From Solwaraspora sp. WMMA2065 (GTDB taxonomy: Bacteria; Actinomycetota; Actinomycetes; Mycobacteriales; Micromonosporaceae): a DNA stretch of 64,000 nt. A program made the position numbers and the translations under genes. Shown one piece after another: positions 9,361 to 28,435 of this stretch. The number at the start of each line of letters is the position of its first letter. Within the stretch, counting starts at the first letter, position 1. The notes below the pieces were generated by a model. It saw only the letters and a program-made list of their open reading frames with translations. It had not been told where the DNA came from and searched no databases. The stretch lies in NCBI RefSeq assembly GCF_030345075.1, contig NZ_CP128361.1, forward strand, positions 4,464,001 through 4,528,000, read 5' to 3'.

Positions 9361-9745
9361 GTGTACGTGTCCACTTCATCTGGCAAGCAGCCGACGTCCG
9401 GTAGCGGGGCCGACCCGGCGCCGAAGCCGTCGCGGCGGGTCTTCAGCCCGGAGTACAAGCTCGCGATGGTCGCCGAGTACGAGAACGCCCCGAACGGCGA
9501 GAAGGGCGCGATCCTGCGCCGGGAAGGCCCCTGTACTCGTCGCACATCATTGAGTGGGCACGGGCGCGCGACGCCGGGCACCTTGGCCGGGTCGACGGCG
9601 GGAAGACGGATGCCGCCACGGCTGGGGCCGGGTCACGGGTGAAGAAGTCCGCGGACCAGATCGAGTTGGAGAAGCTGCGCCGGCAGAACGAGAAACTGCA
9701 GGCGGACCTGAGGAAGACCCGTATGGCGTTGGACATCATGGGAAA
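9361..9745 (+). pseudogene. IS3-type orfA, 5' part, frameshifted
   Basis: Begins RRVFSPEYKLAMVAEYENAP, typical of the IS3 orfA helix-turn-helix protein. An indel in the C-run near 9527 changes frame; the sequence resumes LYSSHIIEWARARDAGHL and a leucine-zipper-like helix (IELEKLRRQNEKLQADL), then MALDIMGK, where the IS110 element begins. The rest of the element (AHALLEE) continues at 11315. The element is dead three ways: frameshift, insertion, and loss of most of orfB. Confidence 0.75.
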
Positions 9746-11314
9746 AGTTCCCTCGCTGCTCTTTGAGCGGGCCCGTTCCGGGCTGAAAATGATCGCGGCC
9801 GCTCGCTGACGCCGTGTGCGCTTGGTCTTCGAGGCCGTGGAAAAGTCGGGTGTGGGGAGCTGCGTCATGGGCCCTTCAATGTTGCTTCGAGCACGCGGAT
9901 CAGCTTCGCTTTCGACTCCAGCAGCTCCCGCGGGCGGCCATCCTGTGACCGACTGGGTGGAAGGACCGGGTGTTGGAGTCAAGTCAGGACAACGAGGAGA
10001 TCATCGAGCGGATCGCGGCGCTCGACATTGGCAAGGCCGAGCTGGTGTGTTGCGTGCGGATCCCGGGCCAGGGACCTGGAGGGCGGCGACGGCAGGAGGT
10101 GTCGACCTACTCCACGATGACCCGGTCGTTGCTGGCGATGGCCGACCGGCTCCGAGAACTGGGCGTGACCCGGGTCGTGATGGAATCGACCTCGGACTAT
10201 TGGAAGCCCGTGTTCTACCTGCTCGAAGCAGCCGGCGTCGACGCATGGCTGGTCAACGCCAAGGACGTCAAGCATCTACCCGGACGTCCGAAGATCGACC
10301 GGCTCGACGCGGTCTGGCTGTGCAAGGTCGCCGAACGGCAGATGATCCGGCCGAGCTTCGTACCGCCGGCACCGATCCGCGAGCTGCGGGACCTGACTCG
10401 CTATCGGGTCGATCTGATTGCCGCCCGGACCGCCGAACGCAGCCGGGTCGAGAAGCTGCTCGAGGATGCCCAGATCAAGCTGAGCGTGGTGGCCAGCGAC
10501 ATCTTCGGAACCTCCGGACGGGAGATGATGGCCGCGCTGATCGCCGGGCAGCGCGACCCGAAGATCCTGGCGCAGATGGCACGCAGTCGGCTACGCGCGA
10601 AGATCACCCAGCTGGAGGACGCGTTCGTCGGCCGGTTCAGCGAGCATCACGGATTCCTGCTCACCAGGATGCTGGCCCGCATCGACGCGATCACCGCGGA
10701 CATCGCCGAGGTGAACCAACGTATCGAGCGGCAGATCGGCCCCTTCGGTGATGTCGCGCGTCGTCTGGACGAGATCCCCGGCGTTGGTCCGGCCACCGCA
10801 CATGTGATCATCGCCGAGGTCGGGGTCGACATGAGCAGGTTCCCCACCCCGGCCCATCTCGCATCGTGGGCGCGCTTCGCTCCAGGAGTCAAGGAATCGG
10901 CCGGCAAGAGCAAGGGCTCCGGCTCCACCGGCCACGGCAACTCCTACCTGGCTAGAGTCCTTGGCGAGGCCGCGGTCGCCGCCGGTAAGACCGACACCTT
11001 CCTCGGCGAACGCTATCGGCGCATCGCCCGACGCCGCGGTAACAGACGCGCCATCGTCGCTGTCGGCCGCTCCATCCTGACCATCGTCTGGCACCTGCTC
11101 CGCGACCCGGCAACCCACTTCAACGACATCGGCTCCGGGTTCTACGACACCCGCGTCAACCCCGAACGCCGCAAACGCAACCACATCCGCCAACTCGAAG
11201 CCCTCGGCTACACCGTCACCCTCGCCCCAGCCGCCTGACCGACCCAGATCAAGAACCCGTCCCGGCTCCGCCGGGACGCTGCCGCCTGCCCACTCACCGT
11301 CCATTTTCGGATCA
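9746..11314 (+). mobile_element. IS110-family insertion sequence inside the IS3 relic
   Basis: The limits come from the interrupted host. Joining the base before 9746 to the AG at 11314-11315 restores MALDIMGKAHALLEE in frame, so the core dinucleotide is AG (9746-9747 and 11314-11315) and the element is 1568 bp. There are no terminal inverted repeats and no longer target duplication, as expected for IS110. A leader of about 220 bases (9748-9969) precedes the transposase. An octamer near 9896-9903 (CGGATCAG) repeats the right end, as a donor guide of a bridge RNA would, but I could not find a full guide set. Confidence 0.8.
9970..11238 (+). CDS. IS110-family transposase (DEDD recombinase)
   Basis: Encodes 422 residues from a GTG. 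The N-terminal RuvC-like domain shows the DEDD acidic residues: Asp in AALDIGKAELV, Glu in VVMESTSDYW, Asp in KIDRLDAVWL. The C-terminal half carries the IS110 signature (LDEIPGVGPATAHVIIAEVG, then HLASWARFAPGVKESAGK), including the conserved serine region. Length and architecture are normal and there is no internal stop, so it is probably functional. These enzymes recombine donor and target with a bridge RNA made from the element's own leader. Confidence 0.92.
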   Translation: MLESSQDNEEIIERIAALDIGKAELVCCVRIPGQGPGGRRRQEVSTYSTMTRSLLAMADRLRELGVTRVVMESTSDYWKPVFYLLEAAGVDAWLVNAKDVKHLPGRPKIDRLDAVWLCKVAERQMIRPSFVPPAPIRELRDLTRYRVDLIAARTAERSRVEKLLEDAQIKLSVVASDIFGTSGREMMAALIAGQRDPKILAQMARSRLRAKITQLEDAFVGRFSEHHGFLLTRMLARIDAITADIAEVNQRIERQIGPFGDVARRLDEIPGVGPATAHVIIAEVGVDMSRFPTPAHLASWARFAPGVKESAGKSKGSGSTGHGNSYLARVLGEAAVAAGKTDTFLGERYRRIARRRGNRRAIVAVGRSILTIVWHLLRDPATHFNDIGSGFYDTRVNPERRKRNHIRQLEALGYTVTLAPAA

Positions 11315-11558
11315 GCACACGCGCTCTTGGAAGAACCCGCCGGGAGCGCGGACAACGACAACCCGCCGAGGAGATCCTGACCGCCGTGTTCGGCGAACTC
11401 CGCGACGCGGGCGTCGCGGTGCAGCGGGCGTGCGCGCTGACCGGGACCTCGCGGGCGACCTACTACCGGCGGACGAAACCGGTCGGACCGCGACACGGGC
11501 CGTGGCTGCCCCGGACGCCACCACCATGGACGCTCAGCACAGCCGACCTCCAGCGGAC
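11315..11558 (+). pseudogene. IS3 relic: end of orfA and start of orfB
   Basis: Continues the IS3 orfA frame after the IS110 element (AHALLEEPAGSADND), then the orfB N-terminus (ILTAVFGELRDAGVAVQRAC, GTSRATYYR). It is cut short near 11558 by the end of another IS. The whole rve/DDE catalytic part is missing. Confidence 0.65.
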
Positions 11559-11603: not shown

Positions 11604-12332
11604 TCAGCCGCCCCACGGGACTCGGGCGATAACAAGGCCGGCGATACGGAGGGCGCCGGCCTTGCGCAGTCTCCGAGCGACGGCGCTCAGCTGGGAACCT
11701 GTGGTGAAGATGTCGTCAAAGAGCAGCACCTTCGCACCGGTGAAGTCGGCCATCAGATCGATCGCGTCGGCGTGCTGGCCGGCTGCCACCTGCTTGTCGT
11801 AGAGGCCTTGCCCGGCAGAGGTCGGCGTCGACGTGCGCTTGAGCAGCAGGTCGTTGCGGATCGGCCACCGGCGTCGTAGGTCTTCCACTTGGGCAGCTTC
11901 GAGGATCGTCTCGATGTGACGGATCGGCTGCCGGTCGGTTGTGGTGGGGTTACCGATGATGACGTCGTACTGACTGGTGATGGTGGCATTCGCCTCCAGC
12001 CACCCGAATACCAGCCGGCCGAGGATTGGCGCCCAGCCTGCCGCGCCCTCAGCGTACTTGAAGTTCTTCAGAATGCTCTTCAGCGGCTCGGAATACATCG
12101 AGATCGCCGCCACGGTCCCGAAGCCGCGCATGTCCTCGGACTGTCGGCAGGTGCTGTTGCGGCAGGCCGCGCCAGCTTCGAGGGCTTGCGCGCAGAGCGA
12201 GCACCGGTTGGGGCTCAGCGGCGGAACAGTAGACATCGCACAACGAATGCAGATGGCGACGGGGCCTGAGGTCAGGTACGGACATTGGGCACAGTTCGGG
12301 AAGCCCAGAGGGGGGCCCGCAGGGTGGGTCAC
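11604..12332 (-). CDS. ComF-like phosphoribosyltransferase, coupled to DprA-like gene
   Basis: Encodes 242 residues. The GTG at 12332 overlaps the stop of the DprA-like gene (GTGA); longer starts give non-protein-like sequence. The N-terminus has two zinc-binding-type cysteine clusters (CAQCPYL with CIRC, then CSLCAQ with CRNSTC). The type I phosphoribosyltransferase PRPP loop is present as VLLFDDIFTTGSQL at about residue 200, with RRLRKAGA after it. In competent bacteria ComF aids DNA uptake, but no competence genes are here, and a PRTase coupled to a DprA homologue is the layout of ShosTA, an anti-phage toxin-antitoxin pair (ShosT is the PRTase toxin). I infer a similar role. Confidence 0.75.
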   Translation of the reverse strand: MTHPAGPPLGFPNCAQCPYLTSGPVAICIRCAMSTVPPLSPNRCSLCAQALEAGAACRNSTCRQSEDMRGFGTVAAISMYSEPLKSILKNFKYAEGAAGWAPILGRLVFGWLEANATITSQYDVIIGNPTTTDRQPIRHIETILEAAQVEDLRRRWPIRNDLLLKRTSTPTSAGQGLYDKQVAAGQHADAIDLMADFTGAKVLLFDDIFTTGSQLSAVARRLRKAGALRIAGLVIARVPWGG

Positions 12333-17016: not shown

Positions 17017-18958
17017 TGTACCGTTCGAAAAACTCGGCCACGGACGTTGACGTGCGGCTTTGTCCGCCGGGGGATCGATGGATGGCGTCATGCTGCCGGT
17101 CATGATCCTGTCGTTGGGCTACCTGATTCTTCGTCAGGCACTGCAGTTGATCATCTTGTTGGCCCGGGGTGGGGACGCCAACGCGGTCGAGGTCCTCGTG
17201 CTGCGGCATCGTGCGCCACGAGGCGCCATTGAACCGTGTGGGGGTGAGAGGCCTCCACCGCCGTCCTGTCGCAGCAGGGTGGTGAAGCTGGGAGCAGCCT
17301 GATCCGGGAGACGCCGGGGAGGGTGGCAAGCAGCTCCGACAACGCCGGGACATGCCAGGACTACCGGATGGTGTGGGTCCGGCAAGCGAGACGAGAAGGT
17401 GTACGTGAGGAACCAGCGGTGTAACGCCCCTCAAGAGCGCGGCCAGCTCGAATCCGGTGGATGTGGGCTGGATGGCGGTGCGTACCCGTCCGCGCAGGCG
17501 GACGGGGAACTCCTTGACCGGTGTGGTGTCGTCGGTCGGGAGGCCATGGTGAAGGTCTGCGGCGTAGCCGTGGCGATGCCGCAGGGGTATAGCTGGGCAC
17601 CTCCCTCGACGAGCGGTTCGTGGTGAACGTGGGAACCGTCCCCGAGTTCCCGTCCGGGGTCTGCCGGCCAGGCAGGATCCGGCGGGTTGGCGCGTCGTCC
17701 GCCGACGGCTCGGGGATGGGGCGGCGGGTTCGTAGTAGTCCGAGGTCGGGAAAGCCGGCCACATGGCGAAGGGACCCAGCGGGTTCGTGTATGTGCGGTT
17801 CTGTAAAGGTTGGAGACGCTGGTGAATACTGGTGAGCCGTGGCCTGACGTCGATGAGGCGCAGGTACGGGTACGACGGATGCAGACCAAGCTGCACCACT
17901 GGGCGGCCGATGATCCCGGTCGCCGGTTTGATGATCTTTTCAACCTCGTGTGTCACCCGGACTTCCTCGTCGTGGCGTGGGAGCGGGTGCGGCGTAACAA
18001 GGGGGCGCGTACGGCGGGCATCGACGGGGTTGCCCCGGCGATGGCCGCGGCGAGTCCGACCATCGTGGTGGCGTTGCTGGCCGATACTCGCCAGCAATTG
18101 AAGTCCCGGACGTTCACTCCGCTGCCGGTGCGGGAACGGCTGATTCCCAAGCCCGGTCAGCCGGGGAAGGTCAGAAGGCTCGGGATTCCATCGACGATGG
18201 ACAGGCTGGTGCAAGCCAGTCTGGCGCTGGTGTTGGAGCCCATTTTCGAGGCCGTTTTCAAGCCGGTTAGTTACGGTTTTCGGCCGCGTCGGCGGGCGCA
18301 GGACGCGATCGCCGAGATCGTCTACTTCGGGTCCAAGGGTTACCGCTGGGTGCTCGATGCGGACATCACGGCGTGTTTTGACGAGTTGGCACACTGCGCG
18401 ATCCTCGATCGGGTCCGCCGACGTGTCGCCGACAAACGCGTCCTGGCCCTGGTCAAGGCATTCCTCAAGGCGGGCATCATGGCCGAGGGTGGCCAGGTCA
18501 GGGATTCGGTCACCGGCACGCCGCAGGGTGGTTTGATCAGTCCGTTGCTCGCCAACATCGCGTTGACGGCGTTGGATGAGCACTTCTGCGCCAAGTGGGA
18601 TGCCCACGGCACAGACGACAGACGGTACCGGCATCGGCAGCGTGGCGGGGCCACCTACCGGATCGTCCGCTATGCGGACGATTTCGCGGTCATGGTGATG
18701 GGCTCCCAAACGCACGTCGAGGCCATACGGGAGGAGGTCGCGCAGGTGCTCGCCCCGCTGGGGCTGCGGCTGTCGCCGGCCAAGACCCGGGTCTGCCACC
18801 TGGACGAGGGGTTCGACTTCTTGGGCTTTCGCATCCAGCGACGCCGCAAGCGGGGAACCAACAAGTACCACGTCTACACCTACCCGTCGAAGAAGGCTCT
18901 GACCTCGATCAAGACGAAGGTGCGGGCGTTGACGAAAGACATCCCAGGAGCTTGAATG

Positions 18959-20191
18959 TCAAGCAGCAGCCTTGCTGAGGTGATGCGACCACGCGGTCGC
19001 CTCGTCGTAGACGGTGCCGGTCTTCAGGCATCCGTGCAGGATGCCGACGAGCCGGTTGGCGAGTTGGCGCAGCGCGGCGTTGTAGCTGGCGCCGCGGGCA
19101 CGTTGCCGGTCGTAGTAGGCGCGGGCACCCGGCGAGGCCTTCAACGCGGAGAACGCCTGGGTCATCAGGGCGTCGATGAGCCGGTCGTTGTGGACGAACC
19201 GGGCCGCGACGGTCCTCTTCTTCCCGGACGCGCGGGTGATCGGGCTGGTCGCGGCGTAGTTCTTCCGGGCCTTCGCGGTGGCGTAGCGGTCGTGGTCGTC
19301 ACCGAACTCGGCGAGCACCCGGGCGCCGAGGACGGCACCCAGTCCGGGCTGGGACAGGATGATCTCAGCGTCCGGGTGCCGGCCAAAATGGTCCTCCACC
19401 TGCCCTTGCAGGGCCTTGACCTGCTCGTTGAGAGTGACCAGCAGGGCGACCAGGGCGCGCACCGACGCGGCGTAGGCGGTGGTGACCACGGCCGGCTGGC
19501 CGAGGTGCTCGGCACGCAGCACCGCCTGGATCGACGCGGCCTTGGCCGCGACGTCACGGCGCCGGGCCCGTTTGAGAGCGGCGCTGATCTGGCTGATACT
19601 CAGCCGGGCGGCGCTGGCCGGATCAGGGGCCTTCGCGAGGAGTTGCAGGGTGTCAGCGGCGTCGAGGTCCTCGAACGCCTCCAACGCCGCAGGGAAGTAC
19701 TCCCGCAGCGCGTGCCGCAGCCGCTGCACAGCACGGGTGCGTTCCCAGATCAGCGTCTTGTGCATCCGGGTGACGACCTTGACCGCCTCGGCGTCCGCCG
19801 AGTCTCCGGCCATCGGGCTCAGTTGGTGCGAGTCGGTGCGCACCATGTCGGCCAGCATGTGCGCGTCGGCGGCGTCGCTCTTGGCCCGGGACACCGCCAG
19901 ACGTTCCCGGTAGCGGGCCGCCTGCAACGGGTTGACCGGGTACACCGTGTACCCGGCGGCGACCAGCGCCTGCACCCACGGGCCCCGATCGGTCTCGATA
20001 CCGATCTTCACCTGAGCAGCAGCAGCGTCGGCGTCGATGTCGTCGCCGAGCGCCGTGCCGATCATCGCGTGGAGCCTGGTGATGCCGGCGATGCCCTCGG
20101 GCAGCCTCGCCTTGGCCAGCCTGCGGCCGGAGGCGTCCATGAGCTCGACGTCGTGGTGGTCCTCCGCCCAGTCATCTCCTATGAACAGCAA
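18959..20191 (-). CDS. IS110-family transposase, copy 1
   Basis: Encodes 410 residues from a TTG, identical to the copy at 26877. The RuvC-like acidic residues are Asp in FIGDDWAEDHHDVELMD, Glu in VKIGIETDRGPW, and two Asp in SRAKSDAADAHMLADM. The C-terminal domain has LSQPGLGAVLGARVLAEFGD and ATSPITRASGKKRTVAARF with the conserved serine region, and ends WSHHLSKAAA. Length is normal. It recombines donor and target DNA guided by a bridge RNA from the element's leader. Confidence 0.93.
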   Translation of the reverse strand: MLFIGDDWAEDHHDVELMDASGRRLAKARLPEGIAGITRLHAMIGTALGDDIDADAAAAQVKIGIETDRGPWVQALVAAGYTVYPVNPLQAARYRERLAVSRAKSDAADAHMLADMVRTDSHQLSPMAGDSADAEAVKVVTRMHKTLIWERTRAVQRLRHALREYFPAALEAFEDLDAADTLQLLAKAPDPASAARLSISQISAALKRARRRDVAAKAASIQAVLRAEHLGQPAVVTTAYAASVRALVALLVTLNEQVKALQGQVEDHFGRHPDAEIILSQPGLGAVLGARVLAEFGDDHDRYATAKARKNYAATSPITRASGKKRTVAARFVHNDRLIDALMTQAFSALKASPGARAYYDRQRARGASYNAALRQLANRLVGILHGCLKTGTVYDEATAWSHHLSKAAA

Positions 20192-20438
20192 CGTCTCTCC
20201 CGCCTATTGAGTCGATCACCGCTGGTAGCCAGGAGGAGAACCATCAGCGACCTAATGAAGCAGTGCTCACGCCGCGACCGGGCGGGCACGACATCCCATC
20301 AGCGATCAACTCTCCACACCGACCAGCCGGGGCACGATCTTTCGTCAGGACTCGACGTCCAGGAACCCGGAGTGCTCACCGGCTGGCGGCTACCTACCCA
20401 CCAGGAGTTTGCCGGATGGCTCACTCCCAGAACTCATT
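20192..20438 (-). ncRNA. Predicted bridge RNA, copy 1
   Basis: The 247-base leader between the left end and the transposase of IS110 copy 1; identical to 26630-26876, where the guide segments are described. Its right-target guide TGACGAAAG pairs over 9 of 9 bases with CTTTCGTCA of this insertion site. Confidence 0.65.
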
Positions 20439-20794
20439 AGGATCACGGCACAAGACCCTGGCCGACCTGCTGCACCAGCTCAACTCGGTGCTGCGGGGAT
20501 GGTGCAACTACTTCCGGCACGGGGTGTCGTCGGGGACCTTCCACTACCTCGACCACTTCACCTGGTGGCGAGTGACCGGGTGGCTGCGCAAACGACATCC
20601 CAGGATCACCTGGAAGGCCCTCCGACGGCGGTTCCTGACCGCAAGTCCAGGACGCCGCCCTACCGAGGGCAAGGAGGTGCTGTTCCTCGCCCAGCAGGTG
20701 CCGATCGTGCGCTACCGCTGGCGAGCGACCAACATCCCCACGCCATGGACCAGCGTGCAACCTGCCGAAACCGCATAGCCAGCGGGAACCTGTG

Positions 20795-20832
20795 GAGCGC
20801 CGGATGCGCGGAGACGTGCACGTCCGGTGCGG
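20795..20832 (+). ncRNA. Group II intron domain V
   Basis: GAGCGCCGGATG, loop region GGAGAC, then GTGCACGTCCGGTGC fold into the short catalytic hairpin with the AGC triad near its base. Domain VI and the 3' splice site follow (to 20893). It is 17 bases after the maturase stop, the usual place. Confidence 0.75.
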
Positions 20833-21740
20833 CGGGCGGGCCGGGGAAACGGACCGGCAGGAATGCCGGAACCGCGCCCCGGTCCGACCCGACAGGTCGC
20901 GGTCCTGCGTCGGCAGGTGCGCCGTCCGGATCTGGAACCCGCCGACCGGGCGGTGCTTGCCGGCCTGTCGAGGCTGTTGCCGCGGACCCGGTGGGCGACG
21001 TTTCTCGTCACCCCGGCCACGTTGTTGCGCTGGCACGGCGATCTGATCACACGGCGGTGGACCTACCCGAGACGGCGGCGGGGTCGACCCCCGGTGACGG
21101 CCGAGGTACGCCAGCTGGTGCTACGGCTGGCCCGGGACAACCCCACCTGGGGATGCCGACGCATCCAGGGCGAGTTGACTGGCCTGGGCTACCGGCTCGC
21201 TGCCAGTACGATCTGGGCGATCCTCACCAAAGCCGGTGCCGGTCCGGCTCCACGACGGGCGGGACCGACCTGGACCGAGTTCCTCACCACCCAGGCCAAA
21301 GGCATCCTGGCCTGCGACTTCCTACACGTCGACACCATCGGACTGACCCGCGTCTACGTCCTGTTCCTCATGGAGATCGCGACCCGGCGAGTCCACCTAC
21401 TGGGCGCAACGACCAACCCGACCGGCGAGTGGGTGGCACAGCAGGCCCGCAACCTCATGATGGGCCTGGGCGATCGTGCGAACCAGTTCCGGTTCCTGAT
21501 CCGGGACCGGGATGCCAAGTACACCAACTTGTTCGACACCGTGTTCCACGCCGAGGGTGTCGAGGTGCTCCGAACGCCACCCCAAGCACCCCGGGCGAAC
21601 GCGTTCGCGGAGCGCTGGGTACGCACCGTCCGGCGAGAGTGCCTCAACCGGACCCTGACCTACAACATGAGGTGCCCCGAGGATTCCGGACAGGGAGCCA
21701 ATAAGGTTACCCTGTAAGGAAAATCGAGGGAAGAAGCGCG

Positions 21741-26389: not shown

Positions 26390-26629
26390 GGCCGAAGCCT
26401 GTCGGTGCCGTGTACGTCTCCGCCGCGGACTGGGGTCTCCTGCGGCACGCGTGCCGCGGCGGCGATGGCCGGCAGCAGCAGGCTCGCCCACCTCTCGGTG
26501 AGCTCCGAGTCGGGTGTCAACGCCGTCGCGCGCACGGTGCCGGCGCAGGCGGCGCTGCCGCACCGGCACCGGAACGACCAGGGGTCCTCGAAGCGGAAGC
26601 CGCGGTAGTCGCATGTGGCCTCGGTGCCT

Positions 26630-26876
26630 AATGAGTTCTGGGAGTGAGCCATCCGGCAAACTCCTGGTGGGTAGGTAGCCGCCAGCCGGTGAGCACTCCG
26701 GGTTCCTGGACGTCGAGTCCTGACGAAAGATCGTGCCCCGGCTGGTCGGTGTGGAGAGTTGATCGCTGATGGGATGTCGTGCCCGCCCGGTCGCGGCGTG
26801 AGCACTGCTTCATTAGGTCGCTGATGGTTCTCCTCCTGGCTACCAGCGGTGATCGACTCAATAGGCGGGAGAGACG
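26630..26876 (+). ncRNA. Predicted bridge RNA of the IS110 element
   Basis: The leader before the transposase contains, in the order known for IS621-type bridge RNAs, four short guides. Left target: GGTTCCT (26701-26707; site GGTGCCT, 6 of 7). Right target: TGACGAAAG (26721-26729; pairs with CTTTCGTCA 9 of 9 at copy 1, CTTTCGGGA 7 of 9 here). Left donor: TGGGATGTC (26770-26778; identical to the right end at 28122-28130). Right donor: TTCATTAG (26809-26816; pairs with left end CTAATGAG 7 of 8). A GGAC/GTCC hairpin (26708-26720) separates the target guides. The folding and RNA ends are not determined. Confidence 0.7.
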
Positions 26877-28109
26877 TTGCTGTTCATAGGAGATGACTGG
26901 GCGGAGGACCACCACGACGTCGAGCTCATGGACGCCTCCGGCCGCAGGCTGGCCAAGGCGAGGCTGCCCGAGGGCATCGCCGGCATCACCAGGCTCCACG
27001 CGATGATCGGCACGGCGCTCGGCGACGACATCGACGCCGACGCTGCTGCTGCTCAGGTGAAGATCGGTATCGAGACCGATCGGGGCCCGTGGGTGCAGGC
27101 GCTGGTCGCCGCCGGGTACACGGTGTACCCGGTCAACCCGTTGCAGGCGGCCCGCTACCGGGAACGTCTGGCGGTGTCCCGGGCCAAGAGCGACGCCGCC
27201 GACGCGCACATGCTGGCCGACATGGTGCGCACCGACTCGCACCAACTGAGCCCGATGGCCGGAGACTCGGCGGACGCCGAGGCGGTCAAGGTCGTCACCC
27301 GGATGCACAAGACGCTGATCTGGGAACGCACCCGTGCTGTGCAGCGGCTGCGGCACGCGCTGCGGGAGTACTTCCCTGCGGCGTTGGAGGCGTTCGAGGA
27401 CCTCGACGCCGCTGACACCCTGCAACTCCTCGCGAAGGCCCCTGATCCGGCCAGCGCCGCCCGGCTGAGTATCAGCCAGATCAGCGCCGCTCTCAAACGG
27501 GCCCGGCGCCGTGACGTCGCGGCCAAGGCCGCGTCGATCCAGGCGGTGCTGCGTGCCGAGCACCTCGGCCAGCCGGCCGTGGTCACCACCGCCTACGCCG
27601 CGTCGGTGCGCGCCCTGGTCGCCCTGCTGGTCACTCTCAACGAGCAGGTCAAGGCCCTGCAAGGGCAGGTGGAGGACCATTTTGGCCGGCACCCGGACGC
27701 TGAGATCATCCTGTCCCAGCCCGGACTGGGTGCCGTCCTCGGCGCCCGGGTGCTCGCCGAGTTCGGTGACGACCACGACCGCTACGCCACCGCGAAGGCC
27801 CGGAAGAACTACGCCGCGACCAGCCCGATCACCCGCGCGTCCGGGAAGAAGAGGACCGTCGCGGCCCGGTTCGTCCACAACGACCGGCTCATCGACGCCC
27901 TGATGACCCAGGCGTTCTCCGCGTTGAAGGCCTCGCCGGGTGCCCGCGCCTACTACGACCGGCAACGTGCCCGCGGCGCCAGCTACAACGCCGCGCTGCG
28001 CCAACTCGCCAACCGGCTCGTCGGCATCCTGCACGGATGCCTGAAGACCGGCACCGTCTACGACGAGGCGACCGCGTGGTCGCATCACCTCAGCAAGGCT
28101 GCTGCTTGA
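26877..28109 (+). CDS. IS110-family transposase, copy 2
   Basis: Same 410-residue protein as copy 1 (18959-20191), from the TTG at 26877 with a GGGAGAG ribosome site. DEDD residues and the C-terminal serine domain are intact. Only 20 bases separate its stop from the right end, so the noncoding information of the element lies upstream, as in the IS110 (not IS1111) subgroup. Confidence 0.93.
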   Translation: MLFIGDDWAEDHHDVELMDASGRRLAKARLPEGIAGITRLHAMIGTALGDDIDADAAAAQVKIGIETDRGPWVQALVAAGYTVYPVNPLQAARYRERLAVSRAKSDAADAHMLADMVRTDSHQLSPMAGDSADAEAVKVVTRMHKTLIWERTRAVQRLRHALREYFPAALEAFEDLDAADTLQLLAKAPDPASAARLSISQISAALKRARRRDVAAKAASIQAVLRAEHLGQPAVVTTAYAASVRALVALLVTLNEQVKALQGQVEDHFGRHPDAEIILSQPGLGAVLGARVLAEFGDDHDRYATAKARKNYAATSPITRASGKKRTVAARFVHNDRLIDALMTQAFSALKASPGARAYYDRQRARGASYNAALRQLANRLVGILHGCLKTGTVYDEATAWSHHLSKAAA

Positions 28110-28435
28110 CATTCAAGCTCCTGGGATGTCTTTCGGGATGTCGCGCACGGCGATGCCGACCGACAGCCCGTCGTCGAGGACCGACGGGTCGCAGGAGTGG
28201 TTGATCAGGAAGGCGCCCTGGCAGGGGGTGAGGTGGCGGCCATCGGCCCGGCGGAAGCCGAACTCGGCCAGCCATGCCAGCACCGGCAGCGGTGTCTCGT
28301 CGCCGCTGCCGGCCGGCAGCACCCTGCAGCGGGGGCATGGCCACCACACGGCCGTGCCGGCGGGGATGTCGCGCAGGGCGATGACCCCCACGCCGTGGAT
28401 CTTGCTGAAGCCGGGGTGTAACGCGGTATGCAGCA

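Follow-up and report, generated by a model that had tools for sequence, protein, structure and literature searches.

Bridge-RNA elements of the IS110 kind were described in 2024, and bridge RNAs are under development as programmable recombinases. The measured targeting rules come mainly from IS621 (PMC11208160, PMC11208158, and PMC11187229, each cited here from part of its text). The IS621 target consists of 7 + CT + 2 bases, extendable to 5, and all nine non-core positions are strongly preferred matched; longer right guides have been reported for some IS621 orthologues (PMC11208160). A junction promoter has been published for IS621 and other members (PMC11208160; PMC11187229), handshake pairing and its covariation for IS621 and orthologues (PMC11208158), and natural reprogramming for seekRNA elements (PMC11187229).

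The window analyzed here (the whole stretch of DNA, 64 kb) contains two identical copies of a 1500-bp element, one per strand (Table 1). We hold with high confidence that each copy is an IS110-group insertion sequence, predicted from its sequence to work like IS621. Its nine natural targets, together with 66 target loops of relatives with known sites, make the rules of a distant branch readable from genomes.

Table 1. Features of the element and of its predicted bridge RNA (window coordinates)
Feature	Position	Strand	Remark
IS110-family element, copy 2	26630-28129	+	CT cores at 26628-26629 and 28130-28131
IS110-family element, copy 1	18939-20438	-	CT cores (AG on + strand) at 18937-18938 and 20439-20440
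Left end (LE), non-coding, 247 nt	26630-26876	+	Encodes predicted bridge RNA (covariation, structure)
Left end of copy 1	20192-20438	-	Same sequence
5′ stem-loop of bridge RNA	26642-26663	+	26642-26645 with 26660-26663; 91.8% of cells paired
Target-binding stem-loop	26682-26745	+	26682-26696 with 26733-26745; inner hairpin 26708-26711 with 26717-26720
Left target guide (LT -8 to -1 plus CT)	26698-26707	+	CCGGGTTCCT
Right target guide	26723-26729	+	ACGAAAG, reverse complement of CT + RT +1 to +5
Target-loop handshake nucleotides	26730-26731	+	AT; first base A in 76/76 leaders, uninformative
Donor-binding stem-loop	26751-26835	+	26751-26758 with 26828-26835; inner hairpin 26779-26786 with 26796-26803
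Left donor guide	26770-26778	+	TGGGATGTC, right end plus first core base
Right donor guide	26810-26816	+	TCATTAG, reverse complement of CT + AATGA
Donor-loop handshake nucleotides	26817-26818	+	GT; G complementary to LT -1 = C
IS110 recombinase ORF, copy 2	26877-28109	+	410 aa, DEDD_Tnp_IS110 + Transposase_20
IS110 recombinase ORF, copy 1	18959-20191	-	
Predicted -35 hexamer	28106-28111	+	TTGACA; contains recombinase stop TGA 28107-28109
First half of predicted -10 box	28129-28131	+	T-CT; AAT (26630-26632) completes TCTAAT on joining

The element, its copies, and its insertion sites

The recombinase matches PF01548 (113.3 bits, cut-off 29) and PF02371 (43.3 bits, cut-off 21.3) in Pfam, and NF033542, "IS110 family RNA-guided transposase," in NCBIfam (167.1 bits, cut-off 140). 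Among proteins of solved structure, phmmer matches it to IS621 (PDB 8wt6, E = 8.4e-12, in two stretches) and to ISCro4 (PDB 9t56, E = 9.3e-10, the best stretch listed being query 246-398). In the phmmer alignment, which is one of sequence only, FIGDDWA, KSDAADAH, and ASGKK stand opposite YIGIDTA, KTDTVDAR, and ESGSS of IS621, the catalytic residues considered being D11/E60/D102/D105 and S241. By homology, catalysis would proceed via a DEDD/serine composite site. The Rfam small RNA family Ms_AS-4 (RF02464, 74.9 bits) matches antisense inside the recombinase gene of both copies, at 27716-27797 (-) and 19271-19352 (+); this could reflect a genuine antisense RNA, or the family may simply pick up conserved transposase DNA. 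Another IS110-family recombinase, distinct from the first, lies at 9970-11238 (+) (422 aa, NF033542, 253.2 bits). Its flanks are contiguous in six places of two congeners, so that this second element appears to be inserted in a repeated sequence, at roughly 9741-11316. A 98% copy exists in G001.

The twin elements of the original prediction are indeed identical over 1500 bp, which with one CT core each gives the 1502 bp written there. The non-coding flanks of the recombinase gene measure 247 nt upstream of it and 20 nt downstream of its stop codon. There are seven copies in the genome (one contig, 6.74 Mb), six of them identical and one (L007) with a single mismatch, and whole-element matching finds the CT core on both sides of all seven. 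One congener (G005) has two further copies, with recombinases 99.5-99.8% identical and the same leader.

It had been proposed to ask whether every chromosomal copy lies at C-CT-TTCG, and this is the case for 7/7 copies here and 2/2 in the congener: all nine are at C^CT^TTCG, with flanks otherwise unlike. The genome contains 212 unoccupied CCTTTCG sites (both strands, 6.74 Mb), too few for seven hits by chance to be believable. Even among CCTTTCG sites, the TT that the guide has at -3, -2 is found at 3/7 inserted but only 7/212 free ones (Fisher p = 0.002), a comparison picked post hoc, once the sites were known. The claim that excision restores the frames of two unrelated genes also holds. Removal in silico of the element and one core leaves an open frame of 488 codons through a group II intron maturase gene for copy 1 (TIGR04416, 310 bits for the fragment before the insert), and one of 210 codons through a SET-domain gene for copy 2 (PF00856, 23.4 bits against a cut-off of 22.4 for a 135-codon fragment). 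In 2 of the 353 other genomes of the family, the junction is spanned by an alignment to a relative of the maturase gene, at 74-75% identity and with small gaps; an empty SET-gene site was found in none of the six other genomes of the genus. Within 17810-20893 (+), the region that holds the maturase gene split by copy 1, there is also a group II intron RNA match at 20795-20893 (Intron_gpII, 44.9 bits). This locus is one mobile element inside another.

The search for relatives covered 7 genomes of the genus, 354 of the family, and a named genome collection; at most five candidates per genome were scored, and the best 80 of 358 relatives were kept. Among 160 loci, 158 had a recombinase match, of which 130 had both ends and 28 had no motif end or low identity. 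The 130 loci correspond to 110 distinct sites, and removal of L106 (false ends), L030, and L107 (short flank) leaves 107. Ends were located by the motifs CT[AC]AT[AGC][AG]G (left) and GG[AG][TC][GA][TC]C[TC] (right), and for this reason the conservation of the core, of the -10 box, and of most donor-end letters is partly built in. The right core is CT in 106/107 sites and CC in one, the motifs having demanded CT on the left and C[CT] on the right. Of the 13 training loci with a right but no left motif end, three have readable left ends (L064, CTAAT; L069, CTAAT; L094, CTAAC); hence the motif loses some divergent ends.

Some relatives' copies occupy repeats (L032, L113, L038, L140-L143, L024, L137, L138), much as IS621 occupies REP elements. 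Long left flanks are common to L032 and L113, and also among the copies of one genome (G104), and GGGGCCCCTC-type repeats are found at 3/5 copies of another (G234). Two copies from different genomes (L050 and L062) share the right flank CAAGGCGGTAGC.CGGGTTCGA, which resembles the 3′ half of a tRNA; ARAGORN found no tRNA in the joined sites, and a tRNA target was rejected for these two.

The predicted bridge RNA and its targeting rule

The consensus fold of the leaders consists of a 5′ stem-loop followed by two stem-loops, with the guides in unpaired internal loops. It was derived from 63 of the 76 leaders, near-identical ones having been removed, and its 39 pairs are 35 of the 37 predicted by RNAalifold plus four added by hand; two weak RNAalifold pairs that span the beginning of the left donor guide were not counted. 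Standard pairs occupy 96.3% of the 2436 pair cells. Changes on both sides are seen in 26/39 pairs, with 199 compensated cells against 45 in shuffles (0/500), and the covariation score reaches 0.334, where shuffles give 0.166 (0/500) and slid partners 0.04-0.09. In the target-binding stem-loop 98.4% of cells are paired in both helices and 12/17 pairs have both-side changes; the GGAC/GTCC hairpin that had been noticed between the target guides is conserved, with 3/4 pairs changed on both sides. The outer stem of the donor-binding stem-loop has 94.6% of cells paired and both-side changes in 6/8 pairs. The 5′ stem-loop, with such changes in 2/4 pairs, is the part added by hand, from the first sequence; RNAalifold did not predict it. 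Taken alone, the leader of this element has a minimum-energy fold no more stable than shuffles (z = -0.60), and a search of it against Rfam matched no family. The comparative evidence from 63 sequences bears out the anticipated fold, two stem-loops exposing the guide segments. With this and the match of the sites, the reading as an IS621-type bridge RNA has survived both checks that had been set for it and is supported.

A covariance model of the leader (R1) gives each window copy 179 bits, a score that owes something to the presence of this leader in the model. Over 121 genomes it gave 43 matches in 19 genomes. Of the 30 loci fetched, several adjoin a truncated recombinase, and three (L206, L208, and L218, from G316 and G324; 118.1, 104.3, and 72.8 bits) have no convincing one; in ten such orphans examined a right end was absent by pattern. 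The orphan matches are probably decayed copies, or possibly solo guide RNAs. A further, weak R1 match in the window (11862-12021, 24.2 bits) lies inside a 311-codon open frame on the other strand and was taken as chance.

All four guide segments claimed in the leader were found at the places proposed for them. The guides are the variable parts of a more conserved leader: information averages 1.28 bits over columns 62-277 but 0.52 bits in the left guide, and the two least conserved columns of the right guide have 0.10 and 0.13 bits. The correspondence between guide and site was tested on 107 distinct sites, 76 leaders, and 66 target loops. The per-loop mean agreement with the left guide is 0.43, 0.48, 0.57, 0.65, 0.78, 0.83, 0.87, and 0.93 from -8 to -1, and with the right guide it is 0.98, 0.96, 0.98, 0.95, 0.68, 0.25, and 0.26 from +1 to +7. 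Under permutation, agreement is 0.25-0.31 at most positions and rises to 0.37-0.69 at the less variable -1 and +1 to +3. From -7 to +5, the observed agreement exceeds all 2000 permutations at each position; LT -8 is raised (z = 3.1), yet inside the permutation range, and at -10, -9, and +6 to +10 agreement is at chance in these 107 sites and 66 loops. A shift of register collapses the signal, from 0.80 to 0.24-0.41 for LT and from 0.97 to 0.13-0.39 for RT. Over the five positions from -1 to +4, 92/107 sites have zero mismatches.

When permutation is confined to scaffold clusters, LT -6 to -2 and RT +4 and +5 are significant at all three clustering levels, although in the tightest clusters -5 and -4 reach just 22 and 7 of 1000; -8 and -7 are not significant in these (630 and 193 of 1000). 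Positions -1, +1, +2, and +3 hardly vary within clusters and hence are uninformative there. The left-guide matches of the element itself are modest (3, 4, 7, 7, 6, 6, 6, and 9 of 9 sites from -8 to -1). Wobble pairing was rejected as the cause of left-half mismatches, those of G-T type numbering 73 against 72.7 expected. The left-guide letter opposite the second core base (26707 here) is not T in 26/107 sites, the core of the right guide is AG in 107/107, and pairing by the left guide may stop at the first core base.

These data amend the original prediction for the target guides. The left target guide had been placed correctly, and its reach extends to about -7 or -8. The right target guide had been read as the core plus seven bases, matching copy 1 at nine of nine positions and copy 2 at seven of nine. 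The segment is present, but its reach is the core plus five: the bases corresponding to +6 and +7 (26721-26722) are at chance and unread, the match being partly coincidence. The contrast between the copies is accordingly weaker than claimed: of the positions read in the right half, +5 alone distinguishes them.

The rule was then confronted with a held-out search of 394 genomes of the class, for which the predictions had been fixed beforehand. From 40 loci, 19 were kept, with 10 loops (18 were dropped for lack of a motif end, two as training sites, and one as short). Matches at -1, +1, +2, +3, and +4 number 17, 19, 19, 18, and 18 of 19, and beyond this strict block they number 15/19 at +5, 2/19 at +6, and 6/19 at +7.

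One could suppose that the recombinase itself reads C-CT-TTCG and that the resemblance between leader and site is incidental, since one heptamer is common to all nine sites. This is very unlikely: the sites of relatives differ (TTCA, GACA, GACC, GCAC, GTCA, CAGA, GCCG, AGCC, and others), the leader letters shift with the site, position by position and in two-guide order, and leaders with scaffold identity above 0.90 differ by up to six guide letters among the pairs listed. Extremely unlikely, too, is a leader that is a conserved untranslated region or promoter whose guide-like segments are remnants of former insertion sites or of copied flanking DNA. Agreement ends near -8 and +5 with no fade into longer homology, one guide serves several sites with unrelated flanks, and the two-sided changes in 26/39 fold pairs speak against an untranslated region, even if the joined ends bear promoter signals as well. 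Finally, a spread of these virtually identical copies by homologous recombination or segmental duplication, with the heptamer as a trace of shared site ancestry, has a negligible probability, as the 40 bases on either side of seven copies have nothing in common beyond the short target and copy 1 interrupts a maturase gene that is uninterrupted in relatives of two genomes. In conclusion, the guide-target covariation over 66 loops and the held-out set supports RNA guidance, with a predicted target selection that is strict over the block -1 to +4 but relaxed to the left of it.

Donor guides, handshake bases, and the predicted junction promoter

The right donor guide had been described as matching 7 of 8 bases of the left end. 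It matches 7/7 (CTAATGA), the next base being a mismatch in 38/38 donor/guide combinations. Donor guides co-vary with the element ends at three positions: in the 38 combinations, agreement is 1.00 at RD +4 and 0.95 at RD +5, against about 0.5 permuted, and 1.00 at LD -4, against 0.73 permuted. At LD -1 the left donor guide matches the right end in 0.68 of the 38 combinations, which does not exceed the permuted level. Variation at most of the remaining donor positions is slight, in part because the end motifs fix them.

The donor-loop handshake base is complementary to the -1 letter of the left target guide in 65/66 loops. It is complementary to the actual LT -1 at 0.92 against 0.64 permuted (0/1000), a permutation that ignores relatedness, and the ten loops with an A:T handshake look like one group of related elements. 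In the held-out set, complementarity to the guide letter holds in 8/10 loops. The rule that a handshake A requires LDG -1 other than T, valid in 10/10 training loops, was refuted by held-out L242 and L267. As the pairing and its covariation are already published for IS621 and orthologues (PMC11208158, in the part of it used), the handshake result is a confirmation in a distant branch and not a discovery.

Joining the right and left ends gives TTGACA-N17-TCTAAT, and a promoter is predicted at this RE-LE junction from its sequence. Scanned for consensus promoters, the left end as integrated gave nothing, the promoter being predicted for joined ends only. TTGACA at a spacer of 17 or 18 is present in 83/88 distinct elements, and the other five match at 5/6 letters; the -35 box and the spacing are independent of the motifs that located the ends. 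The recombinase stop codon is the TGA of the -35 box in 88/88. TCTAAT is present in 84/88, its letters being largely fixed by the end motifs. In the held-out set the -35 hexamer is perfect in 16/19 and has 5 of 6 letters in three, the stop codon is TGA in 19/19, and TCTAAT occurs in 18/19, with letters partly set by the end motif. The words "stop codon" are absent from the main text of PMC11208160, and an overlap of stop codon and -35 box was not found in the parts used of PMC11208160, PMC11208158, and PMC11187229 or in a limited full-text literature search.

Proposed mechanism and comparison with known systems

Taken together, these elements would function as follows. The recombinase would excise the element as a circle in which the two ends meet at the CT core. 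This junction would create a sigma-70-type promoter, and transcription from it through the left end would yield a bridge RNA about 200 nt long. The sequence comparison assigns each guide its DNA. The left guide of the target loop matches the target top strand at about -8 to -1, and the right guide of that loop is complementary to CT and to +1 to +5. Of the two donor-loop guides, the left one matches the element's right end, and the right one is complementary to CT and the first five left-end bases. The target top strand would be handed to the donor loop in the exchange, which fits a handshake base complementary to LT -1.

Two features may characterize this actinobacterial branch. The targeting rule is weighted to the right, its left arm weakening out to about -8, and its position -1 would be read twice, by the left target guide first and by the donor-loop handshake base after the exchange, so that retargeting at -1 would need coordinated changes in two loops. 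The second is a putative fused switch, in which the stop codon lies within the -35 box and the core with the first donor bases within the -10 box; in that layout a single promoter, present solely in the excised circle, would serve guide RNA and recombinase alike. The right-weighted rule and the fused switch are not stated in the portions of PMC11208160, PMC11208158, and PMC11187229 consulted. For the features jointly, a right-weighted rule with a doubly read -1 and a fused stop-codon/promoter switch, we consider the case evenly balanced, slightly below our earlier estimate, since the end motif itself accounts for part of the -10 conservation. For the design of such systems, the strict right half and the tie between position -1 and the donor-loop handshake base are relevant.

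As far as the cited portions of PMC11208160 and PMC11208158 go, IS621 of E. coli shares with this element the DEDD_Tnp and Transposase_20 domains, the long left end, the CT core, the loop order (5′ stem-loop, target, donor), the guide order LTG-RTG-LDG-RDG, the junction promoter (here predicted), and a handshake base after the right donor guide. Among the differences are the target read here, about 8 + CT + 5 with a strict block from -1 to +4, and the right donor guide, which pairs in one run of seven here and has a split pairing in IS621 (PMC11208160, PMC11208158). ISCro4 (PDB 9t56) is also an IS110-family recombinase of solved structure. The seekRNA paper on ISEc21 and IS1111 describes, in the part used, target matches in the non-coding region, with the bottom-strand match first as in the IS110 type (PMC11187229), a trait also seen here. 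In IS1111 the RNA region is usually downstream of the gene and the matches are in reversed order (PMC11187229), whereas here it is upstream; only 20 nt follow the gene, which sets the element apart from the IS1111 group. The known mechanism is unchanged, and what these genomes would add to it is a quantitative targeting rule and a fused promoter layout. The element is a well-supported addition to the IS110 bridge-RNA elements, whose activities here we infer throughout from sequence.
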